Both the position numbers and the translations under genes were made by a program. From NCBI RefSeq assembly GCF_036711975.1, contig NC_091967.1:11408001-11472000 (forward strand): a DNA stretch of 64,000 nt, given 5' to 3'. The stretch is from Onthophagus taurus. Lineage: Eukaryota; Arthropoda; Insecta; Coleoptera; Scarabaeidae. Shown here piece by piece: positions 29,501-64,000 of the stretch. Under the pieces are notes generated by a model. The model had not been told where the DNA came from. It searched no databases and worked only from the letters and a program-made list of their open reading frames with translations. The stretch's first letter is position 1, and every line of letters begins with the position of its first letter.

Positions 29501-32500
29501 GCGACATACCACTATGCATGGTGCATGATCGTGTATAATCAAATCTTTTTTCCTGTACTTGGTGCTTGTTGTAAAAGAACTAACCCACCAGTATTAATTA
29601 AATACTTCTAATAATTCAAACGTTTTTTTTAATCATTCGAATATTATTAATATTCATGGTGTATATTAAATATTTTTTCTATATTGGATAAAATTTGAAT
29701 GGTACAGCTTTGTAAATAACGAAATCTTTTAACTACTTTTCTTTCAAGATGTTGATGAAGCAATACCTAGTTGATTCTTACAGAAAAAAGTTTGAGGTCT
29801 TACCTGCACTGGTTTAAAACGAGGAGTTGGAATGCGAAAATTAGCCATTCATGGCAAGAGATTCAGTGTTAATGATGTAGCTATGATTTGGATTGCTATG
29901 GTTTGGAAAACACCATAATTCAACTGGATTCATTTAGTATTGCCATGGTTTTATTTCTGATCTTTAGATAGCCCCAAAATAGGCGTGGAGTGTGAAATCG
30001 TCGCCGTTTTTTAGTTCAGTCCTGTTGGAACCAGATGCTGCTAGTGGCAATTTTATTTTATTCAAGATGACGAATTAAAGGCATAGTGAGGCACTGCTTG
30101 TTATCTCTCATTTTGAAAAAAATTGGATTCGCACCATATATCACTTTTTAGCTGTGTAAAATAATAGTGAAAATTATTTTGCTTGTTGACCAAACCGTCC
30201 AAGTGAAAATGAGTCTCATCTGTCAACATCATAATTGCATTTACTCTAAAATTTGCAGCATACGTACATTAAATTGTTCACGTTGACGGTGGTTTGTCGG
30301 AAATACCCTTTGAACCACCATAACTTTGTAATGACGAAACTTCAGATGTTTGTTCAAAATGTACGTTAAACTTCCACGAGGAATTCGGAGTGCTTGAGAG
30401 CGGTCTCTACTTGATCGAGTTCGACTCTGAATAATAGATATTCTTACACGATCAATATTTTCCTGTGTATTCCACTCAATTCTCTTTAACAACTCTTCTT
30501 TATCTTCTCGAAAATCATTTACCCACCTTTCAGATGAACAATATCATAATCACATTCACAGTCTTCTTCAAACTAATGAGTATATTTGTTGTCATTAACG
30601 AAATAATTAACCGTTCCTCTGGAAAAACATTGTTTTTATGTCCTCCTTTCTAAAATTCTGCAGCACATTTTCAAGGTTATATGTACTTTATTTATACATT
30701 TCATCTTCATCGGTCTTGATTTTTAAATTGTTCTTTCTGACACGTATTATATGTATATACGTGCTAATAGATGATGTTTCAATTCTCTAAGTCTTAGGAA
30801 CTGCTACATATCTTAAATTAGTAGACTAATTGTAAGTCCTTAATGTTTCTGCTACATATCAGCATTACTAAGAATTAACACTCTAGCGTTAACACTCGTT
30901 GATTTGTATATAATATTTGGGAAATAGTAATTTGTTATTTCCCTCTTAAGAATGTTAGAAAAACATCCTGTGTTTACCTTTAGAATGGTGTAATTTGACT
31001 AGAGGGCTTATTAATAAATTACTAGGAAGGTCTTAGATGATCCATAGAAAGTGCTTTTAAAATCTGAAATTCTTTTTAAAACAAACAAACTTTCTAGAGA
31101 TATTTACTAAACAGGATATGATTAAAATATCTGTTTATATTATCAAATATTTATAATCAGTTCTTATTTATTCATTAAATCTTTCCAATCGTTATTGGCA
31201 TACTGCATTTTTATGATCATAAAATCCTATAAACTTTACATTGAATGTAAATATGAGAAAAACGTAATTCTATTTACCATTTTCACCATCAAAATTGTTA
31301 GAGAATTCTAAAAAAATGTGTTACAAATGTTATTTTTTTAATTTTATGCAAAACCTAAAAGAAAATGTTAAAAAGCGCTTTCAAATGATAAATAAGAGTC
31401 ACCTTTTTGGTTGTGAAATATGTTTATGCAAATCAAATGACTACATCTTAATGGACGACACCATATAGTTTAAAAATAGCCTGTCTATTTTGTAGTTGTT
31501 TACCAATTTAAGGCAATGCAAGTATTGATGTAAATGGATGATGTGTACTAAAAATATGCAAGCTAAATTACTACTTAGAACGTATCGATTTTATTTAGAA
31601 AACAACGTACCCAATTAAATGAAAATCAAGGTCAATCTTAAATAATAGATACATGTAGTTCATCAGCTGGTAAGCGGCTCAAAAATTCTCATGTTAATGC
31701 TAAACTCATTAGTATGATTATTACTCTTATCCACGTAGTGAAACGTAGAGAATAGGAAAGATGTTTCACGTTAATGGAAATTTAAATTTTTCAATAGATG
31801 CATCATCTACACTTCTCATTAAATAGTAATATTAATGTTTTCTTGCCGGTTTCCACATGTTTTTCAAATCGTAATAACAGAAGAACCATTAACTTAAATT
31901 GATGGTATTCGAATAAAATGAGAAACGAATAGAAAAATTGTTATTTGTAACAAATTGTTTTATAAAAATGTAATGACCTAGTAGAAAGAAATTAGTAGAT
32001 CAATAAAATTACTTTGAACTTTAAGTAATAATCCTAATACTTACGCAGCGAGACCTTTTCGCCGTTCTATTTCTTGAATATTTTTGCGAATGTTTGTTTA
32101 TTTAACACTCGGTTCAACTGAAATTCAACTGAAAACCGAAGAACGAAAACATGTTTTACGATCTGTTCTCAAAATACATTCAAATGTTATAAGTGACCGT
32201 CGATTTTTCTAATGTGAAATATTTATCACTTCCTGTTTTTTTTCTTTTGTTTATAGATATTGGGTATTATCTGTATGTCGTGTGCATCACCCGCTTACTT
32301 ATCGGGTACTCATTGGTTCCTCTTTGCCGTCACCATCAGCTTTATAAGCACGTTAATATGGTCCTTTGTTTATTTGTTAAGTATAAGAGAGGCGTTGAAT
32401 CTTCCGATTGACTGGTTGTTATCGGTGAGTATTAAATGACTTAATTCAATATTTTATTAATAAATTAACTATGGGTTGAGGATTAATAATGGCTAAATAT

Positions 32501-55324: not shown

Positions 55325-58300
55325 TTAGCACCTTCCAAGAACCATGGCCAATATCGCCATACGAACAAACAAACCATACTCAGCTTGTCGGAAATAAGCA
55401 GCTCTGGGATCCGAATCAAATTCCGGGCTAATTTCGAATACTCTTGGAAACGGATGTAGAACCACCATACGTCTTTTTGCTCTGGTCATTAATTGAGGTG
55501 TGACGATGAAATGGCCGCAAGCCTATAAAAACAAAACAAATGACGTTGAGTAAATTTAGATCGATCACGTATTTGTAAAATGTTATAAAAGCAGACATAT
55601 ATTTATCTTATCTAATGTTTGAATTTCCATTTTATTTATTAGTTGATTTTATTGCCTTGAACGAGTTTTAATGAATTTTTGCTATTTTATAGAATAACAG
55701 AAAAGTAAAGCCTTCCTAATAAAAACGTATCTTTCATTTATTTATTTATTTGGCCAGTTTTGGTAAGAGTTATTTATTTTTACTGCCATGTAGGTTATAA
55801 ACCAATATTTCACAATTTACACAGATAACTTAAAAATAGAAATGATTCCCTTTAGGAGTAAGTAGTAATAAAAATTGGAATACAATATCAATTGGAACGT
55901 TATACTTAAGTTTTTTTTAAGAATGTGGGAAACCGGAATGTATTTTGATAAGAAAGTAATTAAAAGTAAACAAACTTAAACTCATTGTGTGGAACAAAAC
56001 CTTATTGACTATTAAGATTTTTTATTTTATTACCTTATCATATTCTTCTTGACTCTCGAATCGCTCTCGTTGAATTCGTGTCATGTACAAAACATCTGTA
56101 TCAGGTAAAACGGATTCAAGGTTGTCATGCTCCTCTTGCGGGATTCTTTTAGAGCCGACAAAGTCTACAATATGCTTAGGCATTTTTAAATTCGGCGGAC
56201 TAACGTAACGCAATTGAACGTTGTACAACGTGAGTAGACGAGCCAAAGAATGAACGGTTCTACCATTTTTTAAATCTCCTACTAAACTGATTGTCAAACC
56301 ATTTACAGTACCGATTTCTTCGCGAATTGTAAAAACATCCAATAAAGCTTGAGTTGGATGTTCTCCAACACCATCGCCAGCATTTATTAATGGCTTACGA
56401 CAATGAGCGGCTGCTTTCTGTAATACACAAAATATGTTATCTTTATCTGCAACACGATTGGTTTAAAATCTTACCTTAACTGATCCTGGAACAGGATGTC
56501 TCAAAACGACTACATCAGCATACCCCGCCATAGTAGCAACAGAGTCTTCGAGACTTTCACCTTTTTTCACAGAAGAAGAAGTTTCGTCCATGTAAATAAC
56601 ACCACCTCCCAATCTTTGCATAGCCGCAGAAAAACTACAACAAGTTCTTGTGCTAACTTCGTAAAACATAGACGCCATGATTTTTCCTTTAAGTATATGA
56701 TCCAAATGTCGATCTTTGCTCACATATACTCTAAAGGTTTGAGCAAGATTAAAAAGATCGTTTAGTTGATCTTTGCTGAACATGTCGACATCTAGTATAC
56801 ACTTTCCTGTTAATCCATGACTGTGTGTTTGGGGAGCATTGTCGGAAGAATGTTGGTTGGAGAAACTTTCTGTTCTTATACGAGGGAATGGTAATGGAAT
56901 TGGTGAAATATTATTGTGCATTCGGTTATCATCACTGGCGAAGTGAACGCGACTTGCTGGATCTGAAAGAAGTCTGGAGAACATTTCGTTGGTATGACCA
57001 TCGCTTTCAGCCGGCGAGATTGGGCGATCAAATCCGGAAGAAGGTCTGCTTGTATCCAATGATAACGTAATAATCGGTTTTCTTAGATCACATTCTCGAA
57101 TGTTTTGCCCATAACCTGGTTGTATTAATACTTGACCATCAACATATGCAACTTCTCCTCTTAAAATAACTCTATGGATAGCTCCTTTAATTTTTTTACC
57201 AGCAAACGGAGTCCATTTGCATTTACTGTAAGTCATGGCTTCGGGAATTGTCCATTCTTCGTTTAAATCAACTTCGATGTAAGTGTTTGGTTGATCGGGC
57301 AAATTAAAGATTTTTCTTGGATTTTTATACATCTTATTGATAATATCTTCGATGGTCAACCTTCCTTCGTTAACAGCATTAAGAAGTAATGGCACGATAG
57401 TTTCTAATCCTGGAAATCCAGGTAACGGTTTCTTAGCAGTCTTTTCTTCTATAGTGTGTGGAGCATGATCAGTTGCAAAACAATCAATTATATTCATATT
57501 ATCCCATAAAGCTTGTTGATCTTCTAAGGTACACAAAACTGGTCGCACTTCACTTTTACTCCCCAATTTCGGGATATCTTCAGTTGACAAAAATAAATGA
57601 TGGGGACAAACCTCGCAAGTAACTTTCAACCCTTTTTCTTTCGCAGCTTTTATTATAAGAATTTCTTCTTTTCTTGCAATATGACACACATGTATTGGTC
57701 TATTACAAGAATTTGCCAACAGTAAAACCATAGCTGTAGTACTTCCTTCGGCGTGAACACACAAAGGAGATCTTTTCGGCCAGTTAGTTAAATGCTTCAT
57801 CCATATCGAGACATCATTTAATCGTAAAGTGGTGAATGTTTCGTTCAAATACATTTTTAAAGCAGCCGCATCTAGCGCTAACTCATTGATTGTATTAAAA
57901 TTATCAGATGAGGCACCAACGTATAAAGCATAATCGCATCTCGAGTGTTCTTTTGCAATCTTTTTTGCTAATTGGAAAGACGCGGTATCTACAATCGCCG
58001 GATTTGTATTCGGCATTGCTCCAATTAATGTTATTCCTCCAGCTAAAGCCGCTGCTGTACAGCTTTCGAAATCCTCTTTATAAGTAGCCCCAGGTTCCCT
58101 AACATGAACATGCATGTCGATTAAACCAGGAAGTTTTATTAATTGTTTAGAAGTCATACAATCGCAATGAGTTTTCATTAGCGGAGCTTCTTTTCCTATC
58201 AATCTCAAAGCCTGAGAAAGAATACATCAATCCATAAAAAGTAAAAAGATGCATGATGAATATTTACCTCTACCAACAACTTTGTACACTTTACGTCAGT

Positions 58301-58510
58301 TACTAAAGGAATAGAATAATCGATGGCTAATCGCCTAGTTCTGTAACCGTGAGTCATGAAGGACGAAACACGTCTTGCACCACCATTGCGCATTGGTAAG
58401 TTAATTACTAAATCGAATTGTTTTTTTGAAAGGAATTCGGCTAATGGTTTTAATTCTCCTTGGCTGGTAATGTCATCTATGCTGTCGAATGTCCATTGAA
58501 CGGATTCAAC
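55325..58510 (-). CDS. CAD: CAD, 3' part: MGS end, dihydroorotase, ATCase
   Basis: Exons on the minus strand: 58268-58510, 56475-58211, 56034-56417 and 55325-55522, all in phase 0; 853 residues, the C-terminal part of the roughly 2200-aa enzyme (Drosophila rudimentary). CAD carries out the first three steps of pyrimidine synthesis in the cytosol. The first exon gives the end of the allosteric MGS-like domain ([25 protein letters not shown]). The large exon gives dihydroorotase, with metal-site [12 protein letters not shown], the lysine in [19 protein letters not shown] and [10 protein letters not shown], then a Ser/Pro-rich linker and the start of aspartate transcarbamoylase ([20 protein letters not shown]). 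Later exons give [26 protein letters not shown] and [13 protein letters not shown]. Key residues look intact. The glutaminase and CPSase exons are absent upstream in this window, where an opposite-strand gene lies instead. Confidence 0.97.
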
Positions 58511-59550
58511 CTAGAAAATTATTAATGTACAAGAGTGATACATTTGGAAGGATCAAAGAAAATTGCAAATATTGATGTATTGCAAAGGAAGTAGGCGTTT
58601 AATTGGATTATCACAACTTTATAGCAATAAAGCGAGCACCTCCGAAATGTTGATTTACTTTTGCTTAATTTCATCTCTATATCGCATGCTCCTGTATAAC
58701 CGTAAATTTAAATAAAGCACATTTTTGTGTTAAGTAAAATAGTTTATATCCATTGTAAACTACTAAGCGACAGTAGCTACTTCAAGTTATCTAAATTCAA
58801 TGATAATCACTCAATCAATTTGCGAGCAATAAAAAAATATGGCTGCGACGACGTAATATTTTGAGTATACTTAAATATACTTTAACGCAGATTATCTCAA
58901 CATGTGAGATTAAAAAATGTGTAAACTTTAATCTTGAAGCATTTAATTCCTAAAATTGGTTATTTTAAAAAGTAAAAATTGCTTCAAGGATATTACAAGA
59001 CATATTAAACGTGTTGTTTGGACAACATAAAAGTTCTTGAAATAAACAACACGTTGTGTTGGCGCAATCGTTTATCACCAATCTACGTGTCAATCAAAAA
59101 TAATTACCTATTCCAAATTTGTACTCCAAAGAAAATTATCTAAATGTTTAAATTTAGATAAAATGTAAAGTAATCATTCCAAAAAACCATTATATTAATT
59201 ATGTTATTAGATATTAGAAATAAATAAGTATTAATTAAATTGCTAAACGGAAATAATAAAACGTTTTTATGTTCATAGCTGAATGGAAATGAATAAGATA
59301 ACAAAATAAAAAGTAAATTTCAATGTATTGAGAATATGGTGTCCATTGGAAAAAAAATTCATTCAGTCGTGCAGTAACCACCGTGATTAATCGTTAATCT
59401 AAAAATTAATGATAAGATATCTTTTGCACTTTTAAAGGACATGGCGTGAGATAAGATTCAATTTGCGGAATGCAGTGTGCTGAGATGGACAAATCGCGGA
59501 TGATGATTTGAGTGTAGTGTTAGCATCTGTGTTCTTTTGGGCAAACAAAA
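58511..59550. other. CAD intron and upstream flank of the Mab-21-like gene
   Basis: Begins with the CAD acceptor (minus strand tttctag at 58511-58517). AT-rich, no CAD exon found. The last 100 bases must hold the promoter or 5' UTR of the plus-strand Mab-21-like gene. Confidence 0.5.
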
Positions 59551-62500
59551 ATGGGGTGTTCCAATAGTAAAGGACGTCCAAAACCTGGGACGCAGCAAAG
59601 GCGCCCGACTACAATCGACATGTCGACGCAAGAAGAGACTGTGGAAATTTCCCAACGAAAATTCGACGAAAAAAGTATCGAACAACTTAGAAAGGATTTT
59701 AATGAAAATTTTGATATGTTCTTACTCAATAACATTCTTATGTCGATTATGTTCTACGAAAATTTTGAAGAGTAAGTTTTCTTTGTGTAATGATTGTGTA
59801 ATTACGTAGTACTTGAAACATTACAAACATAATTTTAGTTGCATTGATTTGATTAAAATATAAATATGACGATATATTACAATTAAAATCATAAGAAAAG
59901 ATAGCAAATTTAGAGACACTTCAACACAAATAAGTGCTGTTAAAAATGACAGGTGTATAAAGATGAATGAGTTTAAACGAAAAAAATACATTGAAGTAGC
60001 CACCACATCAATAAATTATACAGTGACATAAATTGGTTTTTACAAATTTCTTGAATACATTTTTAAGTATATTTTAATCAGATTATTATTTTTACCGATA
60101 ACCAGTACAATTGGCGACAATAGATTTCGGAAGTATCATATCAGTTCCGAGAAAAATACGTAATATTTTTAGTTAGCTAGATCAATAGAATCGATAATTT
60201 TTAACTGAGTTATTGATGATGTGCAAAATTGTTTTTATTAACAATCTCATCTTTCTTTTTTAGTGAAATATTAAAAGCAAAAACGTTGCTTACGAAACCA
60301 GAACAAGATCTTAACGATAAACTAATCCGGGAACATTCAAAACAATGCGTTATGCCAGATACCCTTTACGACAAAGTAAACCAACGGGTTCATTTTAAAA
60401 GAAAACATGGTCCAAAAAAAGATGTTGCTGAGCCGTTAGTTCCTATGAGGATGTTTATTATTCATGATAAGATCGAAATTTTGAAAGAAAGTGAAGATTT
60501 AGATCATTACAGCGGAATAGATAAGCCAACTCATAGAGTGAACGTGGAAAATTCAACGCACGCAGGTTAGTTAAATTTTGTTTTGTAAAAATTATCGATT
60601 TTTACTTCGAAGTCACTATCTTACACACTCATCTTAAGGTTAAATTTGCTTTCTAACGTTTTACTGAACATCGGAAACGATTTTTACAAAAGTGGCAGCG
60701 TATTTTTCGCCGATACTATCACGGAAACCAATTGATTTGATTACCGTTGTTCAAGCATTCGAAAAGATTAATCATCAAATAATAACGTTACAAGAAAGAT
60801 TAGATTAGACGCGATATCTCATCCATTTGCCATGCCAAATTGTAACGTACATTTTTAAGAGATAAATATCGCAATAATTAAAAATTTACTTTCGTACGTG
60901 TTTAGGTTTTGTGAAGCTAAAATTGCTCTACTTTCCAACCTTGGAACGGTGCGAATCTTATACATCGTTAAATTCGGGTTCATCGACTTACGCTCACGGT
61001 CAAGCGGCATTAAAAAACGGCTACGATAAATCACAAGCAAGCACTTCATCTTATAGTGACTCTGACGAGTACGATTACAGTAGAGTCAATCAAGCAAGAA
61101 CCGAATTACCGATAAATATTACAGAAAAAAGAAGTAGTTCCGTCGGTTTACCACCTGGTACAATAATCGAAGTCAAAAGTAAAAATTTAGATAGAGAAAA
61201 TGACGAGGATGATATGTTTCGGGTTGATCGTTATATTAACTCAGAAGCCTTTATGAAGTATTTTAGGGAAACCGATTTTCCTGCGAATTTAGGAAAATCG
61301 TTAGGATTTTCATCCGAAGAAATTAGGAAAGCGACTTACACTGCCACTTCCATTTATTGTTGTATGTACGACATTTCCAAAGAAGTTGACGCTAAATGTG
61401 AAATATTACCCGCGGTAAAAAATCCTTTCCCCGATTTAAAAGTATTCCATAAAAGGGATAGACCCAGAATTAAACACAAAGATGATAATCTAATTTACGT
61501 ATTTCCTACTCAAAACATGCTCAAAGACATTTGCAGTCAACCCTCGATAGTTGTTCCAAGAGGATTTCTTCAAAAGAAAGGGGATAATAAAGATTACAAA
61601 TTCGAGTGGGAAACTATCTTTCCCAGAGCTGAGAGGCACATACAAGTACGAATGTTTCACGGTCAAGTACGATGTTTCTTATTTTTGATTATCTTGCATA
61701 AAATGTTTATTGAACCTATTACCCAACATAAAGGTTTAACCGTGGATCATATTAGAAATTTAATGTATTGGGAGTGCGAGAAAAACTACAGAAACTGGCC
61801 TGAACATCGTTTAGGCAACAAAATGATGTACGTTTTGGACGGTCTTCGCAAGTACTTAAGCAAATTAGAAATGCCCGATTATTTTATTGAGAAAAAGAAT
61901 ATGTTTTGCAACATTCCCGGCGCACATTTATACAAAGCTCAAGAACAAATACACAGAATCATAGAAAATCCTGTTTTATACGCCATAGCGGCTTTAAGAA
62001 ACGTGTATTACACAAATGATGCATTTTACCCATTATTGGACTTTGATCAATTATATAAGTTGATAACAAAGAAAGGAGAAGCCGAGAGAGCAGCTGCTCC
62101 AAGCGCCATGAGAACAATTTCCCAGTTCACTCCAACTGGGAGATTTGACCCAAGTCGCCTCACAAGGGAACAAAGATGGGAATTAGATAACATGGAAAAA
62201 CAACGTGAGAAGAAAAGGAAAGAATTGGAAAAGGTAAAGAATCTCAAAGCAACCGAGAAGAGAGAATCCGTTGATTCAATAGATCTTAAATTTTCTATGG
62301 TAAGTTGTTCTTTCTAACTAAGATTAAATAAATAAACACATTTACTTTTTCATAGAATTCATATTCCGTAAAAGAGAGCTTTCTCCAACAAAAAACCTTT
62401 TTGGTCTTTTTCATGGAACATTTCCTTCAAATAGTAAAATATAGCCAAAAGTACAAAGCTTGGAATCAATACTCAATCTATTTGGATCAAGTGAAATATT

Positions 62501-62820
62501 TAAACGCACTCTTAGACGACATCGACGGTGGGGAAAGTCAAAAGTTTAGCGAAAAAATTCGAGAGGCCGACGAAATTGCCACCGAACAAAGAGAGTACAC
62601 TCCGCCTACTCCTATAATTCCCGCCAGGAATTCGATGCATGGTGGACACACCGGGGTGTTACTTAAAAACCAAATGAAACCGAAAACGATTGATCTAACA
62701 AATGTTACCAAAAATTTTCAAATGGGGATCCAAAAAACGATATTAGAAAATGAACCTTCGGCGTCGTCACCAACGAGAAGAAAAGAAGTGCGTTTGATGG
62801 AAACAGCCGAAGTACATTAA
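59551..62820 (+). CDS. Mab-21-domain protein with N-myristoylation signal
   Basis: Exons 59551-59771, 60264-60565, 60906-62299 and 62356-62820 give 793 aa. The start MGCSNSK has glycine 2, cysteine 3 and serine 6, a strong myristoylation plus palmitoylation signal, so membrane attachment is likely. Residues about 275-560 are Mab-21-like: FEWETIFPRAERHI (407-420), HIRNLMYWECEKNYRNWP (456-473) and MPDYFIEKKNMF (497-508) match the C-terminal helical half of the Mab-21/cGAS fold. No GS...[DE]x[DE] catalytic motif of nucleotidyltransferases is visible before it, so enzymatic activity is doubtful. Residues about 596-626 are a charged helix (EKQREKKRKELEK), possibly coiled coil; the C-terminal 150 residues are low-complexity. 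The family includes cGAS-like receptors and MAB21 developmental proteins; which branch this is I cannot say. Poly(A) signal AATAAA at 62968. Confidence 0.9.
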
Positions 62821-63590
62821 TCATCTCGATAATTTATGAAAAAATGTAATTAGAAAAAATTTAGGCGTTAATAAAAAAATAAATGTGTTTGCCACTAAAC
62901 CAGTATTAAGTGAGTAGAGAAAGATTGTAGATTATCTTCTATATTTTTTAAATTTGTATATAATGTAAATAAAGATATTTATTATTTGATTGCCTTTTTT
63001 TCATGTTTCAATAAAATTATGAGACACTCCAAAACTATGTACTTATTAAATTTAATTAATTAAATTAACCGATATGAAAATGCTTTAAAAATCGTTTCGA
63101 GTATTTATTCATTAACCGTTATCTATCACCTGTAATGTTTACCGCTGCAATTAGTTGTCTAATTTTTTTTTTAATTGTATTGTGTGATGTTCTCATACTA
63201 TTACTCACAAGGAATTACGTATTTAAAACTTTATCTTATTGTTTTACAAATCATTCACACTCATGTACAATTGCACTACATGCTATATGAAGTTTTGTAA
63301 CTTATGTTGTTTTGAGATGCTTTTATAGAGGGCTGACGAAAATCACATAAGATGTGGTATCGGTCTCTTAGAATCTATGACTCTAAATTTTAGTCTATAT
63401 TACTGGACTAAAATATATTTCATAAATATACTTTGCGTTTTACAATGTTTGAAGTTTTCCAAACACAATGATCGGACACAAACTGATAATCCGAACTGTA
63501 GTATAATATTATATAGAGAAGGAGTAAGGTCAAAATAATGGTACCGACCTTGACTAGGTTATAATTGACTTTGATCTCAAGATTAGGTCA
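62821..63590. other. 3' flank of the Mab-21-like gene
   Basis: 3' UTR to about 63000 (AATAAA at 62968-62973), then AT-rich DNA with nothing recognised. Confidence 0.45.
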
Positions 63591-63596
63591 GCGGTA

Positions 63597-63834
63597 CTTT
63601 GAGTTTTTTAAGACGTATGTCACGAGTTCAGCTTTGGCCAGTAAAGCTACCGGTTGTCCTTTAGCTTATATTGCTGCTGAATTAGGTTTGGGTATTCTTC
63701 TTCCAAAAATATCATATCATGATTTGAATAAATTTGAGTAAATTTTTAAGAATAAGTACAAAAATTGGAAGCTCAATGAAAAATGTTGGAGAAGTTTTAT
63801 CAATTAGAAGAAGTTATGAAGCGGCATTCCAATC
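63597..63834 (+). pseudogene. Broken CAD CPSase-domain fragment, inverted
   Basis: 63625-63720 reads [20 protein letters not shown] and then GLGILLPK, nearly identical in pattern to the CAD CPSase stretch [20 protein letters not shown]. Then DLNKF runs into a stop. After an apparent 10-base duplication, another frame (63740-63832) reads [20 protein letters not shown] and then EAAFQ, also CPSase. About 20-25 residues between the two blocks are missing and a one-base loss precedes the first block. It lies on the plus strand, opposite to the real CAD exons at 55.3-58.5 kb. Clearly non-functional. It could be a retrocopy piece, an inverted duplication or a rearrangement trace. Confidence 0.85.
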
Positions 63835-64000
63835 CACGTGAGCACGTTATGACCTTGACCTTTGGAGGGTTCAAGGAAGAGGTTCATCAATCGGCAAATA
63901 CCTACTTCTAGCCAGGTTCATAATAAGAGTCATGTAAGTAATTATATATAAGGCAGTACACAATAACAACTATTGATTGATTGAAAAGCATTCTTAATTT
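63835..64000. other. End of window, nothing recognised
   Basis: After the CPSase fragment the similarity stops; no feature seen to the end. Confidence 0.4.

Follow-up and report, generated by a model that had tools for sequence, protein, structure and literature searches.

The CAD gene of Onthophagus taurus carries in one of its own introns a dead, inverted copy of a stretch of one of its own exons, set within the remnant of a mobile element (Table 1; the window is the whole 64,000-nucleotide stretch of DNA analysed). The copy, 209 bp at window 63,624-63,832 on the plus strand, corresponds to 268 bp of the CPSase-encoding part of CAD at C2:11,473,846-11,474,113 on the minus strand, past the window end and at a distance of 2.0 kb. 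The parent, its distance and orientation, the position in the intron, the element flanks and the decay can all be observed directly, and no further copy was found. The fragment is most probably a repair scar of an ordinary, known kind that can be read neatly, and we consider it probable that this scar arose by templated insertion, i.e. that the CAD exon was copied in reverse into an element already within the intron. New in this analysis is the finding that both flanks of the fragment, as judged by alignment, belong to one mobile-element tail.

Table 1. Features of the CAD intron and of the fragment within it (window positions).
Feature	Position	Strand	Evidence or remark
CAD intron holding the fragment	58,511-64,000, on to window-equivalent 64,039	-	length 5,529 bp, from direct reading of the splice signals
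Open frame with the CAD exon downstream of the intron (part of the MGS domain; exon start 58,510)	58,205-58,510	-	Pfam MGS 1.7e-6; acceptor
Mab-21-like gene, separate from the fragment	59,551-62,820	+	Pfam Mab-21_C 3.1e-11
Left part of the mobile-element tail	63,480-63,622	+	both ends approximate; BLAST matches 79-88% identity
CAD CPSase block A	63,624-63,711	+	parent L009:3113-3026, minus strand; Pfam CPSase_L_D2
Short parental remnant between two deletions	63,712-63,736	+	score 22 vs 14
CAD CPSase block B	63,737-63,832	+	parent L009:2941-2846, minus strand; 77/96 identical
Right part of the same element copy, to the conserved end ...TCAATCGGCAAATACCTACT	63,834-63,910	+	start approximate; 82-89% identical to other copies

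Window 63,500-64,000, searched against the genome, gave reversed matches at C2:11,474,026-11,474,112 (92%) and C2:11,473,846-11,473,941 (80%), and the flanks in the same query also gave shorter matches at other places in the genome. The matched exon encodes CPSase (Pfam CPSase_L_D2, E 1.4e-29), and among solved structures it is related to mitochondrial carbamoyl-phosphate synthase (5dot) and to large chains of carbamoyl phosphate synthetase (1a9x and others). When its protein was searched against the 291-Mb genome, with 14 of 14 candidates scored, three places matched at E <= 0.001, namely the exon and the two pieces of the fragment; the parent is therefore CAD's own exon, and the search found no second source in the assembly. 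A second CPSase gene, or a bacterial or mitochondrial source, was rejected on this search, and the better match to another CPSase gene for which an earlier note on this DNA had allowed was not found in the genome. The true CPSase exon that the same note expected beyond base 64,000 is the parent located here. A search for a further CAD piece in the intron, comparing the frame of the large CPSase exon, gave a best E of 0.053 beyond the two known blocks.

The two plus-strand CPSase blocks reported earlier are borne out, with block A identical to the CAD exon at 80 of 87 positions over 63,625-63,711 by direct alignment, and with E values against that exon of 1.7e-27 for block A and 2.9e-16 for block B in the whole-genome search. 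Translated block A matches Pfam CPSase_L_D2 (E 2.2e-4); block B translated alone matches no Pfam family. The CPSase resemblance is not due to chance. The CAD-derived part starts at about 63,622/63,624 and ends at 63,832, so that the range first proposed, 63,597-63,834, holds for its CPSase part and fails for its first ~25 bases, which align with the mobile-element family. In an alignment allowing long gaps the fragment is collinear with its parent (L009:3113-2846). The middle stretch, CATGATTTGAA-TAAATTTG, aligns to parental CATGCTTTGAACCAAGTTTG with a score of 22, a value reached by 18 of 2000 shuffles, against only 14 when it is read as a repeat of the AAATTT stretch; the 10-base duplication once proposed is thus not needed, and a middle stretch derived from parental CATGCTTTGAACCAAGTTTG implies two deletions. 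Because automatic long-gap alignments split this stretch slightly differently, the ends of the deletions are uncertain in exact position.

An in-frame stop and missing sequence interrupt the copy, in agreement with the original description. Fragment and parent differ at 26 of 183 compared bases, in 21 codons, 12 of which change meaning. Comparison by eye shows that in nine of these 12 the residue of the parent recurs in 5dot (mitochondrial CPS1) and/or 1a9x and that of the fragment in neither, and therefore that the fragment is the decaying side; in one (V to I in block A) the fragment matches 5dot and the parent matches 1a9x, and in the remaining two (S/L and V/I in block B) both copies depart from both relatives. 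With its own CAD gene as closest match, a broken reading frame and lost conserved residues, the fragment is a pseudogene. Divergence from the parent is 7/87 (8%) in block A and 19/96 (20%) in block B (Fisher p 0.03), a gap perhaps due to chance or to gene conversion that later affected block A; it speaks against templated insertion to the extent that one event with uniform decay does not predict it. That the fragment might be an assembly artefact, as the earlier note had considered and as reliance on the single available assembly would allow, is extremely improbable: 8-20% divergence with two deletions is unlike an assembly duplicate, and element sequence lies on both sides.

The splice signals place the fragment within CAD. 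The upstream exon ends (...GTTGAA/GTAAGT) at window-equivalent 64,040, and 58,510 is the first base of the next; the fragment lies antisense in the intron between them, its near end ~0.2 kb from the splice donor, and the copied stretch sits wholly within a single CAD exon. The exons inside the window encode part of the MGS domain and dihydroorotase (best solved relatives 'CAD protein'), and the gene continues past the window. The fragment had been described as lying in opposite orientation to CAD exons 5 kb away; the reversed orientation is correct, and the setting is now amended to the inside of the CAD intron 58,511-64,039, with the parent much nearer, at 2.0 kb. The local inverted duplication of the CAD CPSase region that had been suggested is likewise upheld, this being the single such copy found in the genome.

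A Mab-21-like gene is nested antisense in the same intron, which splits the MGS domain. It has three GT-AG introns (59,772-60,263, 60,566-60,905 and 62,300-62,355) and is therefore unlike a retrocopy. Its end lies ~800 bp before the fragment, whose neighbours are mobile-element sequence, and with its three introns this leaves unsupported the link between gene and fragment that had been considered. Elsewhere in the window, a 100-codon open frame at 30,241-30,543 on the minus strand gives the impression of resembling the N-terminal part of a transposase.

The two flanks of the fragment are successive, same-orientation parts of one element tail family. On the left, BLAST support reaches 63,583-63,597, and looser local alignments with three other copies (L011, L012 and L018) extend to ~63,622; on the right, BLAST support begins at 63,844, and 63,834-63,844 is covered by looser local alignments. 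One such tail used as a query gave 24 matches, including itself and the window copy, and the two tail parts follow each other in order at nine other loci, where the nearest BLAST hits are separated by 21 to 324 bp. None of these nine is among the three genome matches to CAD (E <= 0.001), and at one of them (L050) the tail parts are merely 21 bp apart, with no CAD sequence. The gap between the parts is 297 bp in the window copy and 297 and 324 bp in two others; the middle of the family thus varies in length, and the CAD piece is not identifiable as an insertion from gap length alone. By eye, the right junction (TTCCAA) has up to four bases (CCAA) in common with element copies L012 and L015, and two to three bases are possibly shared at the left; such apparent microhomology could be within chance. 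The conserved right terminus of the element is present, and its other terminus was not observed next to the left part. The tail (window 63,834-63,910; also L011, L015, L017 and L018) contains repeated AGGTCA / TCAAGGTCA motifs, which we take to recall nuclear-receptor half-sites.

The same flanks bear on a retrocopy, in which part of the CAD mRNA would have been reverse-transcribed and inserted into the element. The copied stretch is entirely exonic, which is compatible with an mRNA source, yet the piece is not followed by a poly-A run, the flanks share no exact direct repeat of more than 5 bases, one mobile-element family lies on both sides, and the piece comes from the interior of the gene and ended up in that very gene. 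We therefore depart from the earlier note, which had offered a retrocopy as one possibility, and give this origin very little credence.

The element itself may be related to Polinton/Maverick, by an indirect assignment. Eleven tail copies have, within ~0.5 kb, matches to one open frame from locus L053 (lists compared by eye), and this frame has 133 matches in the genome. Among the first 66 of these 133, relatives of the frame lie within 12 kb of 12 of 51 PolB hits, at distances of 6.1-10.8 kb, while 20 displaced controls gave 0-4, and it is this proximity that suggests a Polinton/Maverick relative. Counting against the link, the frame relatives near PolB are just 31-36% identical. The tail was not found within ~1.5 kb of five distant frame relatives (L068-L071, L073) or of one closer relative (L072). 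At E <= 1 the L053 frame protein matches no Pfam family, and the one member compared has no solved relative; the family is possibly a Polinton-type protein. The family of this frame (L053:1639-2088), with no Pfam match, is highly multiplied, and some of its members lie 6-11 kb from PolB genes. The candidate element would thus resemble Polinton/Maverick in that distant relatives of the frame found beside other tail copies occur 6-11 kb from some PolB genes, and differ in that merely a non-coding tail is left here, whose sequence does not confirm the assignment.

Copying in place is the simplest account of these observations because the piece interrupts one element, no further copy was found, and the donor lies reversed at 2.0 kb. 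As in templated insertions, the sequence matches a nearby site and the donor was kept. We infer that the element came first and the CAD piece second, and that a break and a template switch lay between. A mobile-element copy would already have been sitting in the CAD intron when a DNA break or stalled fork arose inside it; a polymerase would have taken the CAD CPSase exon, 2 kb off on the same chromosome, as its new template and copied ~268 bases in reverse orientation, after which the element would have been rejoined. The copy would then have decayed through substitutions and two deletions, with the parent remaining under selection.

Scars of this kind are known. Excerpts of a study of repaired P-element breaks in Drosophila describe insertions that copy flanking sequence, both directly and as the reverse complement, with an average length of 5.5 bases in wild type (PMC2895639), and excerpts of a study of human junctions report templated insertions of 6 to 13,357 bp (PMC5120786). 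The fragment resembles templated insertions formed by alternative end joining by Pol theta or by MMBIR/FoSTeS in that nearby sequence was apparently copied and reversed, with the joins showing little homology if any. It differs in being old, decayed and inside a mobile element, and its mechanism is read from the scar alone; also against a templated insertion, the Drosophila insertions in those excerpts are far below 268 bases, and the long ones come from human rearrangements.

Alternatively, the element may have captured the CAD piece during its own transposition (transduplication, Pack-type) and landed or stayed in the CAD intron, a course of events that we regard as unlikely. The position of the piece inside an element copy, near its terminal end, fits such a capture, and there is precedent: C. 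elegans Turmoil-1 has gene pieces of 205 and 131 bp within its terminal repeats, according to excerpts of PMC2572040, and plant Pack-TYPE elements, as excerpted from PMC8903248, likewise have a host coding fragment in the end region of a DNA mobile element. Unlike Turmoil-1 and Pack-TYPE elements as described there, the CAD piece is a single copy with no sign of having moved with its element; no other genomic place with the piece was found. A donor within the same gene, 2 kb off, would be unlikely for an element that captured sequence elsewhere and then moved; also against capture, the second terminus of the element is not seen next to the left part. We make no claim that the capture of coding pieces by animal DNA elements is rare.

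An inverted exon copy within an intron could in principle act as a functional antisense element, base-pairing with the exon in the CAD pre-mRNA and influencing splicing, editing or the production of small RNAs, a role that we consider highly unlikely. In its favor, the exon-intron duplex is computed at -247 kcal/mol. When a 2,801-base stretch of the pre-mRNA is folded to minimum energy, 181 of the 268 exon bases are predicted to pair with the fragment, and turning the fragment round in that stretch makes the fold 123 kcal/mol less stable. Excerpts of PMC10317233 describe Drosophila hpRNA loci that carry inverted target pieces, one of them ~200 bp long and derived from an exon; like these loci, the CAD copy could form double-stranded RNA. 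Unlike them, as excerpted, the second arm here would be the parent exon itself, and the predicted pairing matches random decay: among 300 simulations with our own substitution model and the same number of differences, fractions of 0.70 and 0.69 were at least as stable as the two block duplexes. Transitions (11 wobble-compatible against 6 mirror, p 0.33) also give no signal, and the pairing arms are ~2 kb apart and interrupted. Since the pairing is no better than under random mutation, selection for it is unsupported, and maintained RNA pairing was rejected on the simulation and transition tests. There is correspondingly only a slight probability for the boldest form of this idea, that CAD pre-mRNA folds back on its own CPSase exon as a self-directed dsRNA switch on the first enzyme of pyrimidine synthesis, born of a repair by which a copy of the exon entered a mobile element within an intron of the same gene.

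A narrow literature query returned no paper on antisense pseudogenes within an intron of the parent gene, which is no proof of their absence. For annotation, the fragment is a warning, as it could be mistaken for a CAD exon or for a second CPSase gene. If the modeled RNA pairing were real, it would constitute a self-made regulator of an essential gene, CAD. With donor, copy and surrounding mobile element all legible within 3 kb, the scar may show the first entry of a piece of a host gene into a mobile element, before any spread.
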